From: a virus
Virus record (IMG/VR): IMGVR_UViG_3300008448_008518
Location: 1 to 28,011 of that record
Direction: 5' to 3' (one strand)
Length of the DNA stretch: 28,011 bases
Shown: in pieces, positions 1 through 27,046 of the stretch
Numbering within the stretch: the first letter of the stretch is position 1
How the letters are laid out: the number at the start of each line of letters is the position of its first letter
Position numbers and translations under genes: made by a program
The notes under the pieces: model-generated
What the model was told of the DNA's origin: nothing
Databases searched by the model: none
Seen by the model: the letters and a program-made list of their open reading frames with translations, nothing else

Positions 1-44
1 GTTTCGTAAATCTTACGATGATCCGTGGTTGAATAAATACTCAT
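1..44 (-). CDS. HNH homing endonuclease, N-terminal fragment (runs off window)
   Basis: Only the first 14 codons are inside the window, read on the minus strand from an ATG at 44-42. The peptide starts MSIYSTTDHRKIYE, which resembles the opening of phage HNH endonucleases (a TTADYRKIYEKHYG-like beginning). The catalytic HNH part would lie to the left of the window. A purine-rich ribosome binding site (AAGGAGC on the minus strand, about 50-58) precedes the ATG. The gene opposes all its neighbours, as the GIY-YIG gene at 6840-7463 does, and shares that gene's leader. The family call rests on a short match plus the shared leader, so it is moderate. Confidence 0.55.
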   Translation of the reverse strand, partial: MSIYSTTDHRKIYE

Positions 45-110
45 GCTGGTGCTCCTTTTTAGCATTAGAGTAGTTGGGCCTGCCAGCCGCGAACTACACT
101 TTTATTTATC
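45..110 (-). promoter_or_regulatory. Late promoter and 5' hairpin leader of the HNH gene (copy 1 of shared leader)
   Basis: On the minus strand a T4-late-like box GATAAATA lies at 110-103. Six bases downstream is the arm GTAGTT (97-92), which pairs with AACTAC (75-70). The predicted mRNA would therefore begin exactly with a stem-loop, followed by a ribosome binding site and the ATG. The segment aligns closely with 7464-7532 upstream of the GIY-YIG endonuclease, differing mainly in the loop. The promoter assignment is inferred from the T4 late consensus. Confidence 0.6.
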
Positions 111-6880: not shown

Positions 6881-7463
6881 TCCACCCCCGGTGGGTTTTT
6901 CTTCTACCCAACACAACCGCACTTAGATTTGGTTGATTTAATCCGTATTTCTCCCTTAATTCAAACATAGTACATACTTCAACCGTGCCATCGTTGTGTT
7001 TAAATGTATGAATATCATTATTGCGTTTATCTTTTCTAGCAACGCCGGATATCCCTTTGTTCCACGGGATATTTCCTTTTAGTGATTTAGATAGATTTTC
7101 TTTATGTTTTTCTGATTTAGGCTTATTTTTATTTGAGTTACTTATCTTAGTTTTCCACTCAACAGTCCTCACTACCCCATCAAGCCCTTCGCCGCCATCT
7201 GTTTTGTTTCGCAATATACCAGTATTATTGTCTTTTCTACCATACCATCGTATCATTCTTCTTTCTAATGCAAAAGCACCAATCGCAGTTAGCCCGTCCT
7301 CTAATATAATGATGCGATTAGTTGACGGTGTAGGTATGCCCTTAGAGTAGTTATTGTCTGATTTTGTGCGATGACTTGCCCAAGCTCTATTGCCAGTGCC
7401 TTTACCAATATAGTAAGGTGTGCCATCTTTTCGTAGATAGGCATAAACGTAATAAATAGTCAT
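6840..7463 (-). CDS. GIY-YIG homing endonuclease with NUMOD3 motif
   Basis: The 207-residue product starts [22 protein letters not shown]-like, giving the GIY-YIG pair in the variant YVY...YIG. R-rich helix residues follow, with the catalytic-type E in the [11 protein letters not shown] segment. Residues about 110-140 carry a NUMOD3 DNA-binding motif ([16 protein letters not shown]...NKG), and the C-terminal HRGW is common in such enzymes. It nicks or cuts a target to spread by homing. It is encoded against the direction of transcription, between the late block and the TilS-like gene, behind a leader shared with the HNH fragment at the left edge. Its 3' end overlaps the metallopeptidase gene and contains that gene's terminator. 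Confidence 0.88.
6882..6900 (+). terminator. Rho-independent terminator after the late block
   Basis: CCACC (6882-6886) pairs with GGTGG (6890-6894) across a 3-base loop, followed by a T run to 6900. It starts 2 bases after the metallopeptidase stop. The same bases encode the HRGW end of the opposing GIY-YIG protein. Confidence 0.7.
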
Positions 7464-7532
7464 GCTGATTGCTCCTTGTAAGCGTTAGAGTAGTTGGGAA
7501 TTCCCGTTCCGCGAACTACACTTATATTTAGT
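7464..7532 (-). promoter_or_regulatory. Late-type promoter and 5' hairpin leader of the GIY-YIG gene (copy 2 of shared leader)
   Basis: On the minus strand a late-like box ACTAAATA lies at 7532-7525. Six bases on, GTAGTT (7519-7514) pairs with AACTAC (7495-7490), so the mRNA would begin with the stem. AAGGAGC (7477-7471) then precedes the ATG at 7463. The copy at 45-110 has the same layout and near-identical bases outside the loop. Confidence 0.62.
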
Positions 7533-7541
7533 CCAAATCTA

Positions 7542-7571
7542 TTGAAAAACATAGTTAATCTATGCTATACT
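7542..7571 (+). promoter_or_regulatory. Sigma70-type promoter of the TilS-like gene (leaderless)
   Basis: TTGAAA (7542-7547), an 18-base spacer and TATACT (7566-7571). The expected start of transcription, 7 bases past the -10 box, is 7578, the A of the start codon. No ribosome binding site is present, so the message is predicted to be leaderless. Confidence 0.65.
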
Positions 7572-7579
7572 GCATAGAT
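7550..7579 (+). promoter_or_regulatory. Inverted repeats around the -10 box: candidate operator
   Basis: ATCTATGC (7558-7565) and GCATAGAT (7572-7579) are perfect 8-base arms on either side of the TATACT box. A further CATAG at 7550-7554 forms a second inverted repeat with CTATG at 7560-7564. Three half-sites over a promoter suggest binding by a dimeric regulator; none is identified here. Confidence 0.5.
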
Positions 7580-8168
7580 GATTAAAATTCTAGTTCCGTT
7601 GCCAAAACATATCACTGTAGCGTTCAGTGGTGGAGTGGATAGTGTTGCTATCGTAGATTTTTTATCCAAAAAACATGAAGTTACTTGTGCATTCTATCAT
7701 CATGGAACTGAAAACAGTGATAAAGCATTAGATTTTGTAGGTAAATTCTGCACTGATAGAAATCTCCCATTGTTTTTGGGAATCTTGAATAAAGAAAAAC
7801 CAAAAGATATGAGTTATGAAGAGTTTTGGAGAGAAGAGAGGTATAATTTCTTGTCTACTTTGGGCCCGGTGATTACTGCACATCATTTGGATGATTGTGT
7901 AGAGACTTATCTTTGGTCAGCAATGCATGGTAAACCTAAAGTTCCTAAGTTGACACGAGGTAATGTATTACGTCCTTTCTTAACTACACCCAAAGCAGAA
8001 TTAGTAGATTGGTGTAAAAGAAAAAATATTGATTGGTGCGAAGATCAGAGTAATCAAAACGAAAAGTATACTCGAAATTATGTCCGTAAAAATCTTGTAC
8101 CACACGCATTGCATGTGAATCCGGGATTGTACAAGACGGTGAAAAAATTTGTTGAAAAACAACTATAA
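7578..8168 (+). CDS. TilS-like PP-loop ATPase (tRNA(Ile)-lysidine synthase catalytic domain)
   Basis: The 196-residue product has the PP-loop SGGVDS at 17-22 and AHHLDD at 101-106. It also has LRPFL at 131-135, D156 with SN at 158-159, and a YTRNYVRKNLVP segment at 164-175. These are the hallmarks of the N-terminal domain of TilS, which adenylates and lysinylates C34 of tRNA(Ile) so that it reads AUA. It is far shorter than bacterial TilS (over 300 aa); the C-terminal tRNA-binding domains are absent. QueC, another PP-loop enzyme that this pathway would use, has different signatures (no RNxxR motif), so I prefer TilS-like. A modified substrate specificity is possible. The promoter for the next operon lies in its last codons. 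Confidence 0.72.
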   Translation: MIKILVPLPKHITVAFSGGVDSVAIVDFLSKKHEVTCAFYHHGTENSDKALDFVGKFCTDRNLPLFLGILNKEKPKDMSYEEFWREERYNFLSTLGPVITAHHLDDCVETYLWSAMHGKPKVPKLTRGNVLRPFLTTPKAELVDWCKRKNIDWCEDQSNQNEKYTRNYVRKNLVPHALHVNPGLYKTVKKFVEKQL

Positions 8169-12316: not shown

Positions 12317-13792
12317 ATGGAACAAGTCAATCTCTCAGGCTCACATAATTCAGACTGGGCACTGTTCTTACCGGCAGTGTCTAGTTTTTTTATTAGTGGT
12401 TTAGGTAAACAAAGAGAAGGTGAAAATTATTTTGATGCCGCCAGAATACCTAAAGGGTTTAACGGTGACGTTGAATGTTTGAATTTTCTTAATAGTAAGC
12501 AAGGTCTATACACTTATAAGTGGGGGCTGTATAGCGCAGGACATGCTAATTTAGATACTACAATTATAGATAATGCTGAAAGTATTATACGAAAGCGAGA
12601 AGCTGGTACATTCATGCTAGGTGATAGTGGTGGATTTCAGATTCTTAAGGGGCAATGGCCTGCTGATTGGAAGGATATTAACTGTCCTAAAGCAATGGCA
12701 AAGCGCAAAGAAGTACTGAATTGGATGGACACATACATGGATTATGGTATGTGTCTTGATGTTCCTAGTGAAAGTTATCGAAATACAAAAGCATTTGATC
12801 AACATAAAATTCGTAATCTTGCTGATGCTGTACAAGCCACACACATTAATAATGAATATTTCATTAATAATAGAAATGGAAATTGTAAATTCCTTAATGT
12901 AATGCAAGGACTGACACATACTGACAGTGATCATTGGTATGATGAGATGAAAAAGTATTGTGATCCTAAAATTTATCCTGACAATCATTTTAATGGTTGG
13001 GCATTCGGTGGGCAAAATAAGATTGATGTCGAGTTGATGCTACGACGTATTGTAGGCATAATTCATGATGGTCTACTAGTAGAAGGTAAACACGATCTAT
13101 TGCATTGTCTAGGTGTAAGTATTATGGAATATGCCGTATTGTTTACCGATATACAAAAGGCAGTTAGAAAATATCATAATCCTAACTTTAAAATCACATT
13201 TGATTGTGCTAGTCCCTTTTTCAGTGCGGCAAAAGGATTAGCGTATTTTAATACAAATATACAGCATAATAAAAAATGGTCTTATAGTATGGAAAAGACC
13301 GCGGAAAATAAGAATTATGCAGGCGATACTCGAAAATTTAGAGATGCAGTTCTAGCCGATAATATTCATAATTTATTTGCGGATAGCCCAGTTTCTAATA
13401 GAATGACTATAGGTGATCTCTGTTACCGAGGACATGGATTTTTAGGCGCACATAATAAAGAAACTAAAACTAGTTGGGATACATTGAGTTATACAATGCT
13501 ACAAGCACATAACGTGTATCAACATATTTCTGCGGTGCAAGAAGCTAACCGTAAATATGAACAAGGTATTATGCCTAAGATGATTATGAACAAGTTTGAT
13601 GATACCCATTTTGGTAATATTATTGATAAAATCTTTAGTCTAAAAGATAGACAACAGAGTTTGGATTTGATAAAAGCGCATAGTAAGCTATGGATGCAAA
13701 TGCAGTCGGGCAGTCAGGGTATTAGTGGTAAAAAAACTATAAACGCTATAACTATGTTTGATCGATTATTTCAAATAGAAAACAATGACTAA
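12317..13792 (+). CDS. dpdA: DpdA-like DNA-guanine transglycosylase (7-deazaguanine DNA modification)
   Basis: The 491-residue product belongs to the tRNA-guanine transglycosylase superfamily: LGDSGGFQ at 101-108, CLDVPSE at 146-152, NVMQG at 194-198, GWAFGGQ at 227-233, HCLGVS at 263-268 and ITFDCASPF at 293-301, where D296 aligns with the nucleophile region. A late AHNVYQH stretch matches the HNL segment near the TGT C-terminus, but the CxCxxC zinc site of tRNA enzymes is not seen. Together with FolE, QueD and QueE in the same window this supports DpdA, which swaps guanine in DNA for a 7-deazaguanine. It starts directly after the previous stop, with no clear ribosome binding site, so coupling is likely. 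Confidence 0.82.
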   Translation: MEQVNLSGSHNSDWALFLPAVSSFFISGLGKQREGENYFDAARIPKGFNGDVECLNFLNSKQGLYTYKWGLYSAGHANLDTTIIDNAESIIRKREAGTFMLGDSGGFQILKGQWPADWKDINCPKAMAKRKEVLNWMDTYMDYGMCLDVPSESYRNTKAFDQHKIRNLADAVQATHINNEYFINNRNGNCKFLNVMQGLTHTDSDHWYDEMKKYCDPKIYPDNHFNGWAFGGQNKIDVELMLRRIVGIIHDGLLVEGKHDLLHCLGVSIMEYAVLFTDIQKAVRKYHNPNFKITFDCASPFFSAAKGLAYFNTNIQHNKKWSYSMEKTAENKNYAGDTRKFRDAVLADNIHNLFADSPVSNRMTIGDLCYRGHGFLGAHNKETKTSWDTLSYTMLQAHNVYQHISAVQEANRKYEQGIMPKMIMNKFDDTHFGNIIDKIFSLKDRQQSLDLIKAHSKLWMQMQSGSQGISGKKTINAITMFDRLFQIENND

Positions 13793-21165: not shown

Positions 21166-21225
21166 TACATGAACGCTGAACTTTCAGGTTCTACAATAAA
21201 TTCTTGCTTTTTGAAAGGAGAAAAC

Positions 21226-23094
21226 ATGAGCAAAGTAATTGGTATCGATTTAGGCACAACAAATAGTTGTGTTGCAGTGTTTGAGAATGGTTCAACTAAA
21301 GTAATTGAAAATAGTGAAGGCGCTAGAACTACGCCTAGTATTGTAGCATATACGAATGATGAAATCTTAGTAGGTGCTAGTGCAAAAAGACAATCGATTA
21401 CTAATCCCCAAAACACAATTTATGCTGCTAAACGGTTGATTGGTCGTAAGTTCAAAGAACAAGCGGTGCAAAAAGATATTGACTTGATGCCTTATAAAAT
21501 TGTTGAGGCGACTAACGGTGATGCATGGATCAACGCAAATGATAAAGAATTAGCACCACCCCAAGTTAGTGCAGAAGTACTACGAAAGATGAAAAAAACT
21601 GCTGAAGATTACTTAGGTAGTGAAGTTACACAAGCAGTTATCACGGTACCTGCATATTTTAATGATAGTCAACGTCAGGCAACTAAGGATGCAGGCAAAA
21701 TTGCCGGTCTTGAAGTTCTTCGTATTATCAATGAACCCACAGCAGCGGCACTTGCATATGGTGTTGATAAAGAAGATAAGCGAGATCGTAAGATTGCCGT
21801 ATATGATTTGGGTGGCGGTACATTTGATATTTCGATTATTGAAATTGCAAACGTTGATGGAGAAAAACAAATCGAAGTATTATCTACTAACGGAGATACG
21901 TTTTTAGGCGGAGAAGATTTTGATCAACGAGTTATGGATTATCTTATCGATGAATTCAAGCGCGAACAAGGGGTTGATCTTACCAAAGACGTACTAGCAT
22001 TACAGAGACTGAAGGATGCAGCAGAAAAAGCCAAAATAGAGTTGAGCAGTTCATCTCAAACTGATGTTAATTTACCCTATATCACTGCTGATAGTAGTGG
22101 GCCTAAGCATCTGAATGTAAAACTTAGTCGAGCGAAACTTGAAAGTTTGGTAGAAGAATTAATTCAGCGTAGTATCGAACCTTGCAAGATTGCAATGAAA
22201 GATGCAAAAGTATCACCTAGTGATATTGACGAAGTAATTCTAGTGGGTGGTATGACCCGTATGCCTAAAGTACAAGAGGCAGTAGAAAAACTTTTTGGTA
22301 AATCTCCTCGTAAAGACGTTAATCCAGACGAAGCAGTAGCCGCAGGTGCTGCAATTCAAGGAAGTGTGTTAAGCGGTGATCGCAAAGATGTATTGCTACT
22401 AGACGTTACTCCATTGAGTTTGGGAATAGAGACAATGGGCGGTGTATTTACAAAACTGATTAATAAAAATACAACTATACCTACCAAGCATAGTCAAGTG
22501 TTTAGTACAGCCGAAGATAATCAACCAGCCGTCACTATTAAAATTGGTCAGGGCGAACGTGAATTATTTCAATACAACAAGTTATTGGGAGAATTTAACC
22601 TAGAAGGAATCGCTGCTGCACGTAGAGGAACTCCGCAAATTGAAGTTACTCTTGATATAGATGCGAACGGTATAATGCATGTTAGTGCAAAAGATAAAGG
22701 CACCGGTAAAGAAAACAAGATTACTATAAAATCTAGTTCAGGTCTAAGTGAAGAAGAAATCGAACGCATGGTTAAGGATGCAGAAGTAAATGCTGAATCA
22801 GACAAAAAACAGCGTGAATTGATCGAAGCGAGAAATATGGCTGAAGGTCAATTGCATACATTAAAATCTGATTATTCCGAAGTTGAAAATGAATTGTCCG
22901 AAGAAGATAAAACACTGTTCAATGAACAAGTTAAAAATGTAGAAGAACTTTTAAAATCAGATGACAAGGATAAGATAACCGAATCTGTCACTGAACTTTT
23001 TACTAAGGCTAAGCCAATTTTTGATATAAAGCAAAAGAAAACTGCTGACGCAAAAGATGACATAGTTGATGCTGAAGTAAAAGAAACTGTGTGA
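21226..23094 (+). CDS. dnaK: Hsp70 chaperone DnaK
   Basis: The 622-residue product is full length. The ATPase domain starts [17 protein letters not shown], with [11 protein letters not shown] (phosphate loop) and an [18 protein letters not shown]-like segment. The substrate domain begins [17 protein letters not shown]. The C-terminal lid ends [10 protein letters not shown], a weak form of the acidic tail of bacterial DnaK. It is slightly shorter than E. coli DnaK (638) because of a shorter linker before the tail. The start at 21226 is set by the AAAGGAG site; an upstream in-frame ATG at 21169 only adds a non-homologous leader. DnaK refolds proteins with DnaJ and GrpE, neither found here, so it presumably uses host partners. 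A strong terminator follows. Confidence 0.96.
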
Positions 23095-23216: not shown

Positions 23217-23900
23217 ATGTCATTCAACAAACAAAAAATAGATCCTATTTTGGGTCAAAAAGTACACGAACACCTATTAAAAATGGGTGTAGAAACTCCT
23301 AAGACTGACACCAACACTGATCGTAAACTAAAGATTTCTAAGATTGAAGAACACTTTACTCATATTATGAATATATTGGGTCTTGATCTTAGTGATGATA
23401 GTTTGTCTGAAACTCCAAAGCGTTGGGCAAAAATGGTAGTAAATGAAACAATGTGGGGGCTTGATTATGAGGCTTTTCCTAAATGTACTACTGTAGAAAA
23501 TAAGATGAAATATGATGAAATGGTTGTAGAAAGGAACATTACAGTTCAATCATTATGCGAACATCATATTTTACCTATTGTAGGGAAGGCTACTATAGCA
23601 TATGTTCCTAAAAATAAAGTACTAGGACTTAGCAAGATGCCTAGAATTGTGGAATATTTTAGTAGACGACCTCAAATTCAGGAACGACTTACTGAACAAA
23701 TTTTTCATGCATTGCAATATATTTTAGAGACGGATGATATCGCAGTAGTTATTAATGCTACACATTTATGCGTATCCTCCAGGGGAGTAGAAGATACTTC
23801 AGCATCTACTATAACTTCTAAGTTAGGTGGCGGATTCAAAACAGACCATGCAGCAAGAGCAGAATTTATGCGTATGGTCACATTAAATGATTTAGATTAA
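23217..23900 (+). CDS. folE: GTP cyclohydrolase I
   Basis: The 227-residue product is a full-length FolE. The zinc ligands C114 and H117 (in CEHHILP) and C185 (in HLCVSSRG) are present, together with GLSKMPRIV (137-145), RPQIQERLTEQI (151-162) and the closing TSKLGGGFK. It converts GTP to dihydroneopterin triphosphate, the first step toward folate and toward 7-deazaguanines. With QueD, QueE and DpdA in the window, the second role is the likely one for the phage. It has a strong ribosome binding site and lies between the dnaK terminator and a small membrane protein gene. Confidence 0.96.
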   Translation: MSFNKQKIDPILGQKVHEHLLKMGVETPKTDTNTDRKLKISKIEEHFTHIMNILGLDLSDDSLSETPKRWAKMVVNETMWGLDYEAFPKCTTVENKMKYDEMVVERNITVQSLCEHHILPIVGKATIAYVPKNKVLGLSKMPRIVEYFSRRPQIQERLTEQIFHALQYILETDDIAVVINATHLCVSSRGVEDTSASTITSKLGGGFKTDHAARAEFMRMVTLNDLD

Positions 23901-25701: not shown

Positions 25702-26205
25702 ATGCTTTATCAACCTGTAAATTATAAATATACTTCTACTAAAGAATATCACGACTCTTTCCCGTGTGCATATCGGCAATGGAGAGCAAATAGCCACTGT
25801 AAATTCATACATGGATATAGTTTTAGTATGAAATTTTATTTCGGCACTAATGAATTAGATGTTCGCAATTGGGCAATGGATTACGGTGGTTTAAAAGAAT
25901 TAAAGAAAATCCTCGAGGATCAGTTCGACCATACGGTATTAGTTGCACTTGATGACCCTGAATTAGAAACTTTTAAATTATTACAAGAAAAGAACTTAGC
26001 AAAGTTAACAATTCTGCCTAGACTAGGATGTGAAGGCTTAGCAGATATGCTCTATAAATATGTAAATGGTGTTTATATTCCGGATATGTTAGGCAAGATT
26101 GAGAGTGAAAGATTATGGTGCTATCGAGTAGAAGTTAGGGAAACACAAAGTAATATGGCTTTTAGAGAAGGTCATAGGGAATGGAACGAGGATTTATATG
26201 AATAA
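25702..26205 (+). CDS. queD: QueD-like 6-carboxytetrahydropterin synthase
   Basis: The 167-residue product belongs to the 6-pyruvoyl-tetrahydropterin synthase fold, in the long variant seen in marine bacteria and phages: FPCAYRQW at 20-27, then H32, C33 and H37 in SHCKFIHGYS, MDYGGLKELK at 59-68 and DQFDHTVLV at 73-81. The usual HGH zinc pair reads HGY here, and the upstream aHrL histidine is Tyr, so the zinc set must be rearranged (H32 and H37 are candidates). It should turn dihydroneopterin triphosphate from FolE into CPH4. It has its own promoter and overlaps queE by 8 bases, so the two steps are expressed together. Confidence 0.88.
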   Translation: MLYQPVNYKYTSTKEYHDSFPCAYRQWRANSHCKFIHGYSFSMKFYFGTNELDVRNWAMDYGGLKELKKILEDQFDHTVLVALDDPELETFKLLQEKNLAKLTILPRLGCEGLADMLYKYVNGVYIPDMLGKIESERLWCYRVEVRETQSNMAFREGHREWNEDLYE

Positions 26206-27046
26206 ATTAAAAATCTCTGAATTATTTTATTCAATTCAGGGCGAAGGCAAATATCAGGGTGTGCCTAGTGTGTTTCTTAGAACATTTGGTTGCAACTTTA
26301 AATGTGCAGGATTTGGTATGCCTAAAGGACAATTAAGTGAAGAGAGAATCAAAGTTGCTCAATTTATCAACAATTATAAAGATTATAAATCCTTACCGCT
26401 TGTCAGCACAGGATGTGATAGTTATGCATCTTGGGACCCTAGTTTCAAACATCTTAGTGATTATTACACTACCGATGATATTGTTAGTCGCATTATGGAT
26501 ATATTGCCATATAATCATTGGGTGGATGAGCACTTGGTTATCACGGGTGGTGAACCGTTATTAGGTTGGCAACAGTTATATCCTGAACTATTAAGCCATT
26601 CTAAAATGGCAAATCTTAAAGAATTGACATTTGAAACTAATGGAACACAGTACTTAAGTTCTGATTTTGTTGATTTTTTAAAAACTTGGAAAAATAGTAG
26701 AAACGAAAGTTCATTAACTTTTAGTGTTAGTCCTAAACTTAGTGTTAGTGGCGAGAAATGGGAAGATGCAATATGCCCAGATGTTATTCATCAGTACGAA
26801 ACAGTAGGCGTAGTATATTTAAAATTTGTCGTAGCATCTGAAGATGATGTATTAGAAGCAGAAAAAGCAGTAAAAGAATATCGTAATAAAGGATTTACTG
26901 GATCGGTATATCTAATGCCAGTTGGCGGCACCTTTGAGAAATATCAAATGAATACCAAGTCTGTGGCTAGCCATGCTATGGCACTAGGCTGGAGATACAG
27001 TGCCCGCCTCCAATGTGACCTATTCAAAAATGAGTGGGGAACCTAA
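26198..27046 (+). CDS. queE: QueE-like 7-carboxy-7-deazaguanine synthase (radical SAM)
   Basis: The 282-residue product starts with the QueE signature SIQGEGKYQGVPSVFLRTFGCN. Cluster cysteines are C32 and C36 (CNFKC). The third is probably C73 in TGCDS, placed after a 36-residue insert where typical QueE has CxxxCxxC. VITGGEPLLGW (the GGE SAM motif) and LTFETNGT follow, and YLMPVG lies near the end. It converts CPH4 to 7-carboxy-7-deazaguanine (CDG). Similar inserted forms exist in phage genomes as far as I recall. It overlaps queD at its start and a small gene at its end (TAATG). Confidence 0.9.
   Translation: MNKLKISELFYSIQGEGKYQGVPSVFLRTFGCNFKCAGFGMPKGQLSEERIKVAQFINNYKDYKSLPLVSTGCDSYASWDPSFKHLSDYYTTDDIVSRIMDILPYNHWVDEHLVITGGEPLLGWQQLYPELLSHSKMANLKELTFETNGTQYLSSDFVDFLKTWKNSRNESSLTFSVSPKLSVSGEKWEDAICPDVIHQYETVGVVYLKFVVASEDDVLEAEKAVKEYRNKGFTGSVYLMPVGGTFEKYQMNTKSVASHAMALGWRYSARLQCDLFKNEWGT

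Follow-up and report, generated by a model that had tools for sequence, protein, structure and literature searches.

The transposase of IS10 is limited by a short antisense RNA, RNA-OUT. In T4-type phages, the PeSL cassettes that Arbiol and colleagues are said to have described in 2010 reportedly combine a portable early promoter with a stem-loop and are associated with the exchange of modules. The homing endonucleases of T4 itself are controlled gene by gene, several of them through mRNA hairpins that mask the ribosome-binding site before late transcription sets in (PMC2988022), and in cyanophage S-PM2 a homing endonuclease gene is opposed by CfrI, an antisense RNA of ~225 nt that links the endonuclease to psbA (PMC2984593). 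To the problem of tolerating many self-spreading nucleases, T4 thus offers gene-by-gene solutions.

Here we describe a two-hairpin element found at the starts of nuclease genes in environmental T4-type phages, whose selected structure lies antisense to those genes. We read it, at a probability of roughly 0.58, as a bidirectional control cassette of T4-type phage homing endonuclease genes in which an antisense RNA would block translation. So read, the element would resemble IS10/Tn10 (RNA-OUT/RNA-IN) in directing an inward-facing promoter and a short antisense RNA against the 5' leader, with its ribosome-binding site, of a DNA enzyme that a mobile element encodes; it differs in that one two-hairpin RNA family with conserved sequence serves several unrelated phage nuclease families, late-phage promoter boxes stand on both sides and repression is a prediction. 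With the PeSL cassettes it shares a portable promoter and stem-loop linked to module exchange, but whereas their promoters are early, the box here is of the late type (NATAAATA), the stem-loop is one half of an antisense structure with two hairpins, and the whole is linked to the starts of nuclease genes. The structured leaders of I-TevI, I-TevII, I-TevIII, segB and Aeh1 mobE likewise set a late promoter beside a structured homing endonuclease leader; their hairpins, however, are gene-specific and form on the gene strand in early read-through mRNA, while here the structure is on the opposite strand and belongs to one shared family. The likeness to CfrI lies in a phage antisense RNA (here a predicted one) running against a homing endonuclease gene; our covariance model (R2) gave no match, and so no recognisable relative, in S-PM2 (NC_006820). 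Among open-access papers we found no report of a family of structured antisense RNAs that phage nucleases have in common.

The window, a stretch of 28,011 nt, is a 28-kb IMG/VR fragment, and the search for copies within this genome covers the window alone. Two leaders were recovered on its minus strand (~42-115 and 7461-7530); they are 83% identical along 67 nt, with an E of 1e-14 for a comparison inside the window. Both contain TAAATA, GTAGTT/AACTAC, AGGAGC and ATG, and their loops are unlike yet pairable, as the initial annotation had described. The stem opens 5 nt past TAAATA, which by the general spacing of start to box is where a T4-type late promoter would be expected to begin transcription, again in agreement with that annotation. 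A chance origin of the two leaders is excluded, since R2 detects them at E 4e-20 (copy B) and 3e-19 (copy A), both copies resembling its training set; the RNA structure of both scores on the plus strand, opposite the nuclease genes. The extents first proposed (45-110 and 7464-7532) captured real leaders but stopped short of the whole unit, which measured from box to box occupies 32-109 and 7451-7531 (Table 1). Of the first gene the window contains just 14 codons (MSIYSTTDHRKIYE), and its earlier designation as HNH is likely, if short of proof, 29 of 34 relatives with the same leader and a [HY]RKIY start being HNH. The gene starting at 7463 encodes a GIY-YIG/NUMOD3 protein that matches a PHROG annotated as 'homing endonuclease', NUMOD3 itself falling slightly under the cut-off. 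For the predicted antisense RNA of copy A, the 5' end was placed 5 nt past box 2 and the 3' end in the U-rich tract. The predicted RNAs fold at -18.2 kcal/mol (copy A; shuffles -14.0) and -14.9 kcal/mol (copy B; shuffles -11.6).

Table 1. The two element copies of the window, with their predicted signals and adjoining genes.
Feature	Position	Strand	Basis or remark
Element copy A, antisense RNA strand	32..109	+	model R2, 86.3 bits, E 2.9e-19
Box 2 of copy A, TAAATA, predicted antisense late promoter over nuclease first codons	34..39	+	sequence
Predicted antisense small RNA, copy A	45..105	+	inferred from box spacing
Hairpin P3 of copy A, 8 bp, loop with CCUU complementary to Shine-Dalgarno	46..68	+	
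Hairpin P2 of copy A, 6 bp outer plus inner stem, two bulged G	70..97	+	
Box 1 of copy A, TAAATA, putative late promoter box of truncated nuclease gene	103..108	-	predicted start G at 97
Shine-Dalgarno AAGGAG, copy A	52..57	-	sequence
Probable HNH homing endonuclease, first 14 codons, cut by contig end	1..44	-	
Element copy B, antisense RNA strand	7451..7531	+	model R2, 89.7 bits, E 4.3e-20
Box 2 of copy B	7453..7458	+	sequence
Predicted antisense small RNA, copy B	7464..7527	+	inferred
Hairpin P3 of copy B	7465..7488	+	
Hairpin P2 of copy B	7490..7519	+	
Box 1 of copy B, putative late promoter box of GIY-YIG gene	7525..7530	-	predicted start G at 7519
Shine-Dalgarno AAGGAG, copy B	7472..7477	-	sequence
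GIY-YIG / NUMOD3 homing endonuclease, 207 aa	6840..7463	-	PHROG 314, E 1.8e-11

The stem pattern matches at least 120 stretches of IMG/VR. Other patterns were anchored elsewhere in the leader, so that the stem was not required and, in two scans, neither were the boxes; their match counts are likewise lower bounds. After removal of near-duplicates the element is represented by at least 336 distinct copies in environmental T4-type phages, which bears out the suggestion that the leader be sought in relatives; the T4-type capsid protein Gp23 was found in 9 of 12 records tested. Single phage records of 361, 360, 333, 244 and 139 kb hold 13, 16, 13, 7 and 5 R2 copies, respectively, 16 being the highest number per genome. 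Among isolates, R2 finds one copy each in Rhizobium phage RHph_I1_18, Variovorax phage V45v66 (E 7e-12) and Pseudoalteromonas phage vB_Psh_XG4 (E 6e-7), all three directly preceding a GIY-YIG-type gene; that of RHph_I1_18 was the sole true copy returned when a phage collection was searched for DNA similar to consensus queries. The model finds no copy in T4, Aeh1, S-PM2 or several cyanophages, a weak T4 match inside gene 18 being due to chance. Comparison of the window and four loci with Rfam gave no gathering-level match except tRNAs, the best score at 7400-7600 lying far under the cut-off, and inspection of the element by eye for known ribozyme cores revealed nothing convincing. The element constitutes a large undescribed family; the finding is real and probably new. 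The first pattern also matches seven bacterial genome stretches, and the one inspected is a different, perfect hairpin. That stretch belongs to a gammaproteobacterial MAG with two matches of the same short pattern (L123:39-73 and L125:6596-6630), and in L123 a perfect GTAGTTCCCGTCA hairpin is followed by ATG, probably an unrelated repeat.

Two hairpins make up the element: P2, with six outer and about five inner pairs and two bulged bases, and P3, with up to eight pairs. In a set chosen for diversity, 98.5% of cells are paired compared with 78.5% in shuffles, and double compensatory changes occupy 401 cells against 109 in shuffles, 15 of the 19 pairs showing such changes. Sliding the pairing partners abolishes the signal. 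The outer stem of P2, which was fixed in the first pattern, takes 61 distinct forms once the search leaves P2 unconstrained, so the covariation between copies that the initial annotation proposed to look for is present in the stem. As to orthogonality of the copies within a genome, 51 of 54 P2 sequences are distinct, but copies taken from different genomes show the same diversity. Three P3 pairs are invariant, one of them G.U, and these exceed the needs of simple antisense pairing. P2 carries conserved bulged G's, which would be unexpected in a plain terminator, and a simple terminator scan did not call P2 of copy B.

Either end of the element carries an inward-facing late-type box, NATAAATA. 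Box 1 (TAAATA) is present in 182 of ~202 copies, and in 119 of these it stands 5 nt before P2, the commonest spacing. The motif corresponds to the published late promoter of the T4-like cyanophage S-PM2 (PMC2984593). Upstream of other genes, NATAAATA is enriched approximately three- to sixfold at 10-50 nt relative to the opposite strand of the same contigs (in one example, 115 vs 24), and similar boxes precede gp23 in only some of the genomes checked. Box 1, its spacing and this enrichment point to a putative late promoter before the nuclease gene, a feature of the T4-type leaders. Box 2, which reads TATTTA on the gene strand and TAAATA on its complement, was absent from the search criteria and is retained in 179 of ~202 copies, most commonly 5 nt past CAGC. 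The opening codons of the nuclease run through it in three reading frames (ATGACTATTTAT, ATGATATTTAT and ATGTATTTA), indicating that it is conserved as nucleic acid; a protein-level cause of the MxIY start is ruled out by the retention of TATTTA in all three. Judged from its sequence, box 2 would be a promoter as well, and since the copies of V45v66 and XG4 keep both hairpins without box 2, that role would not be universal. Copies without a TAAATA box 1 have 62% A beside P2 on the gene strand compared with ~40% further out, and the antisense strand is therefore U-rich after P2. Pairing of the two boxes as a closing helix was considered and rejected: there is no covariation and no extension beyond six bases, and copies without box 1 retain box 2.

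Mismatches within the hairpins reveal which strand folds. The scans admitted A.C and G.T mismatches equally, yet on the gene strand the outer stem contains 29 A.C and 2 G.T cells, and all P2 pairs together contain 120 and 7, or 94 and 4 when counted as distinct P2 sequences. The copies are not independent and the set found with R2 leans towards the model, but none of these counts was derived from R2, nor was the 19 to 0 given below. On the antisense strand the non-canonical pairs comprise 113 GU and 11 AC. In P3, read on the gene strand, one pair is C.A in approximately half of all copies and another is A.C throughout the alignments used. Mean minimum free energies are -20.1 kcal/mol for the antisense and -15.8 kcal/mol for the sense strand. 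Because an A.C on the gene strand is a G.U on the other, the selected fold belongs to the antisense strand, which is complementary to the nuclease leader, AAGGAG included; both the structure and its strand are well supported.

An antisense structure could also serve neighbouring transcripts or act in trans, as a terminator or insulator, the leader of the next gene, or an RNA with a conserved partner. Both neighbours are antisense to the nuclease in 142 of the 261 copies for which both were called, so that their mRNAs could contain the structure, and the invariant CUG/UAG pairs and bulged G's suggest recognition. In the 57 copies whose two neighbours are co-oriented with the nuclease, however, the polarity is equally strong (19 to 0), as is the conservation of box 2. 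Read-through from neighbours therefore cannot be the only origin of the antisense strand, and nearly all copies of the structure sit beside a nuclease start. We consider a role for neighbours or in trans unlikely; a long antisense transcript from elsewhere is also possible.

A role for the hairpins in the nuclease mRNA, through protection of its 5' end or hiding of the ribosome-binding site as in I-TevI, segB and mobE, appears improbable. It is encouraged by the control of T4 homing endonucleases (PMC2988022), by a late-type box whose start falls at the stem and by the position of the Shine-Dalgarno sequence within P3. The gene-strand excess of A.C over G.T (120 to 7) contradicts it, P3 is broken by one or two A.C in the mRNA while forming an 8-bp helix on the other strand, and box 2 is left unexplained. 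A Shine-Dalgarno hairpin on the sense strand is thus ruled out by the polarity as the main selected structure, and the earlier proposal that stem-first mRNAs are selected loses ground both to the placement of the fold by non-canonical pairs and to the oppositely facing second box, which had gone unnoted and is conserved as strongly as the first. The T4-type arrangement, in which the site is sequestered in read-through but not in late mRNA, was also rejected, because the predicted late transcript takes in both hairpins and, on the mRNA strand, A.C mismatches interrupt the one that contains the Shine-Dalgarno sequence.

In 54 of the 55 copies found with the model in six genomes, an ORF begins at the leader start codon, and nearly all of these ORFs are recognisable nucleases. 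Among them are GIY-YIG proteins, HNH proteins of several types, endonuclease-VII-like proteins, an EDxHD-like/DUF7487 type annotated as 'homing endonuclease', and TnsA-like/PD-(D/E)xK proteins with kinship to a phage head-closure nuclease; the EDxHD and PD-(D/E)xK fold names are our interpretation of matches that were weak or partial. One leader is therefore common to at least four unrelated types of nuclease, so the view that different nuclease families use one expression cartridge (GIY-YIG, HNH, EDxHD-like, PD-(D/E)xK-like) holds well beyond the pair from which it was drawn. Leader-borne nucleases at three loci (L255, L252 and L268) are related to the PHROG 218 head-closure family, one of them with an N-terminal zinc-finger-like part, and here a structural-protein nuclease fold is apparently used as a mobile endonuclease. 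Elsewhere, one element copy is followed by an ORF unlike a nuclease (L445; G002:C1:102330-104420) and another, L465, by none. Close to where a terminase large-subunit gene begins, a leader copy (L031:140-176) has no more than a short ORF at its start codon and is possibly a remnant.

Within genomes, similarity in the stem region tracks the genome and not the nuclease family. At two loci (L132/L215 and L016/L073), a common flank and leader extend to box 2, unrelated nuclease genes follow and homology then resumes; at another (L134) the nuclease gene is gone behind an intact leader that is still in use in L172. A matching 3' element was sought behind the nuclease genes and none was found, nor any common sequence there. 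Homology that runs through the leader while the nuclease is replaced means that the leader is retained as the gene changes, and this suggests that the leader is less an exchanged unit than a landing platform that stays in place as nuclease genes are exchanged, although other histories would also be possible; of the earlier idea of an exchanged leader, the cassette survives, while the direction of exchange was probably the reverse. That the element acts purely at the DNA level, as a single-stranded hairpin or a platform for nuclease exchange with no RNA function, is very unlikely, for while the arrest of homology at box 2 in both locus pairs and the deletion in L134 would suit it, the nuclease 3' end has no matching element, and the orientation-independent polarity, the promoter-like boxes at set spacing and the conservation of the Shine-Dalgarno sequence suit RNA better.

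Control of the nuclease by an antisense RNA is our best inference for the mechanism. On the gene strand, the late-type box NATAAATA would start the nuclease mRNA at the foot of P2, with the leader supplying the Shine-Dalgarno sequence and start codon. On the opposite strand, inward-facing box 2, lying over the first codons, would start an RNA of ~65 nt with a G, which would comprise P3 (8 bp, its loop complementary to the Shine-Dalgarno sequence), then P2, and a U-rich end at box 1. Fully complementary to the nuclease 5' leader, this predicted RNA could pair along its whole length and block translation, thereby keeping a potentially harmful selfish nuclease low. G.U pairs would let the antisense RNA fold, while A.C at the same positions of the mRNA would leave the Shine-Dalgarno sequence open. 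The existence of the RNA, its ends and its repression of the nuclease are thus predicted. If antisense control is correct, these phages would have a common solution to the tolerance of selfish nucleases, with nucleases of at least four unrelated types served by one family of structured antisense RNAs. An abundant class of phage RNA, as yet unannotated, would then be expected, and should be detectable in strand-specific lake metatranscriptomes; the element also gives a sequence tag by which homing endonucleases can be located and their exchange traced. More tentatively, the copies could form a genome-wide selfish-nuclease regulon of a new small RNA class, with the leader serving as a recombination platform for incoming nucleases. 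A phage would then carry up to 16 antisense RNA genes with a shared core and hypervariable hairpins against many unrelated homing endonucleases, and incoming nucleases would acquire the resident control RNA.

Several other genes in the window merit mention. Directly downstream of copy A on the plus strand lie two tandem Dps/ferritin-like genes (141-942), the second of which is without its N-terminal part. A long TGT-like protein without a PHROG match is encoded together with FolE-, QueD- and QueE-like genes (12317-13792, 23217-23900 and 25702-27046), possibly constituting a 7-deazaguanine DNA modification set. A full-length gene at 21169-23094 (PHROG 22485, E 1e-268) probably encodes a DnaK/Hsp70-like protein, a function assigned from its sequence.
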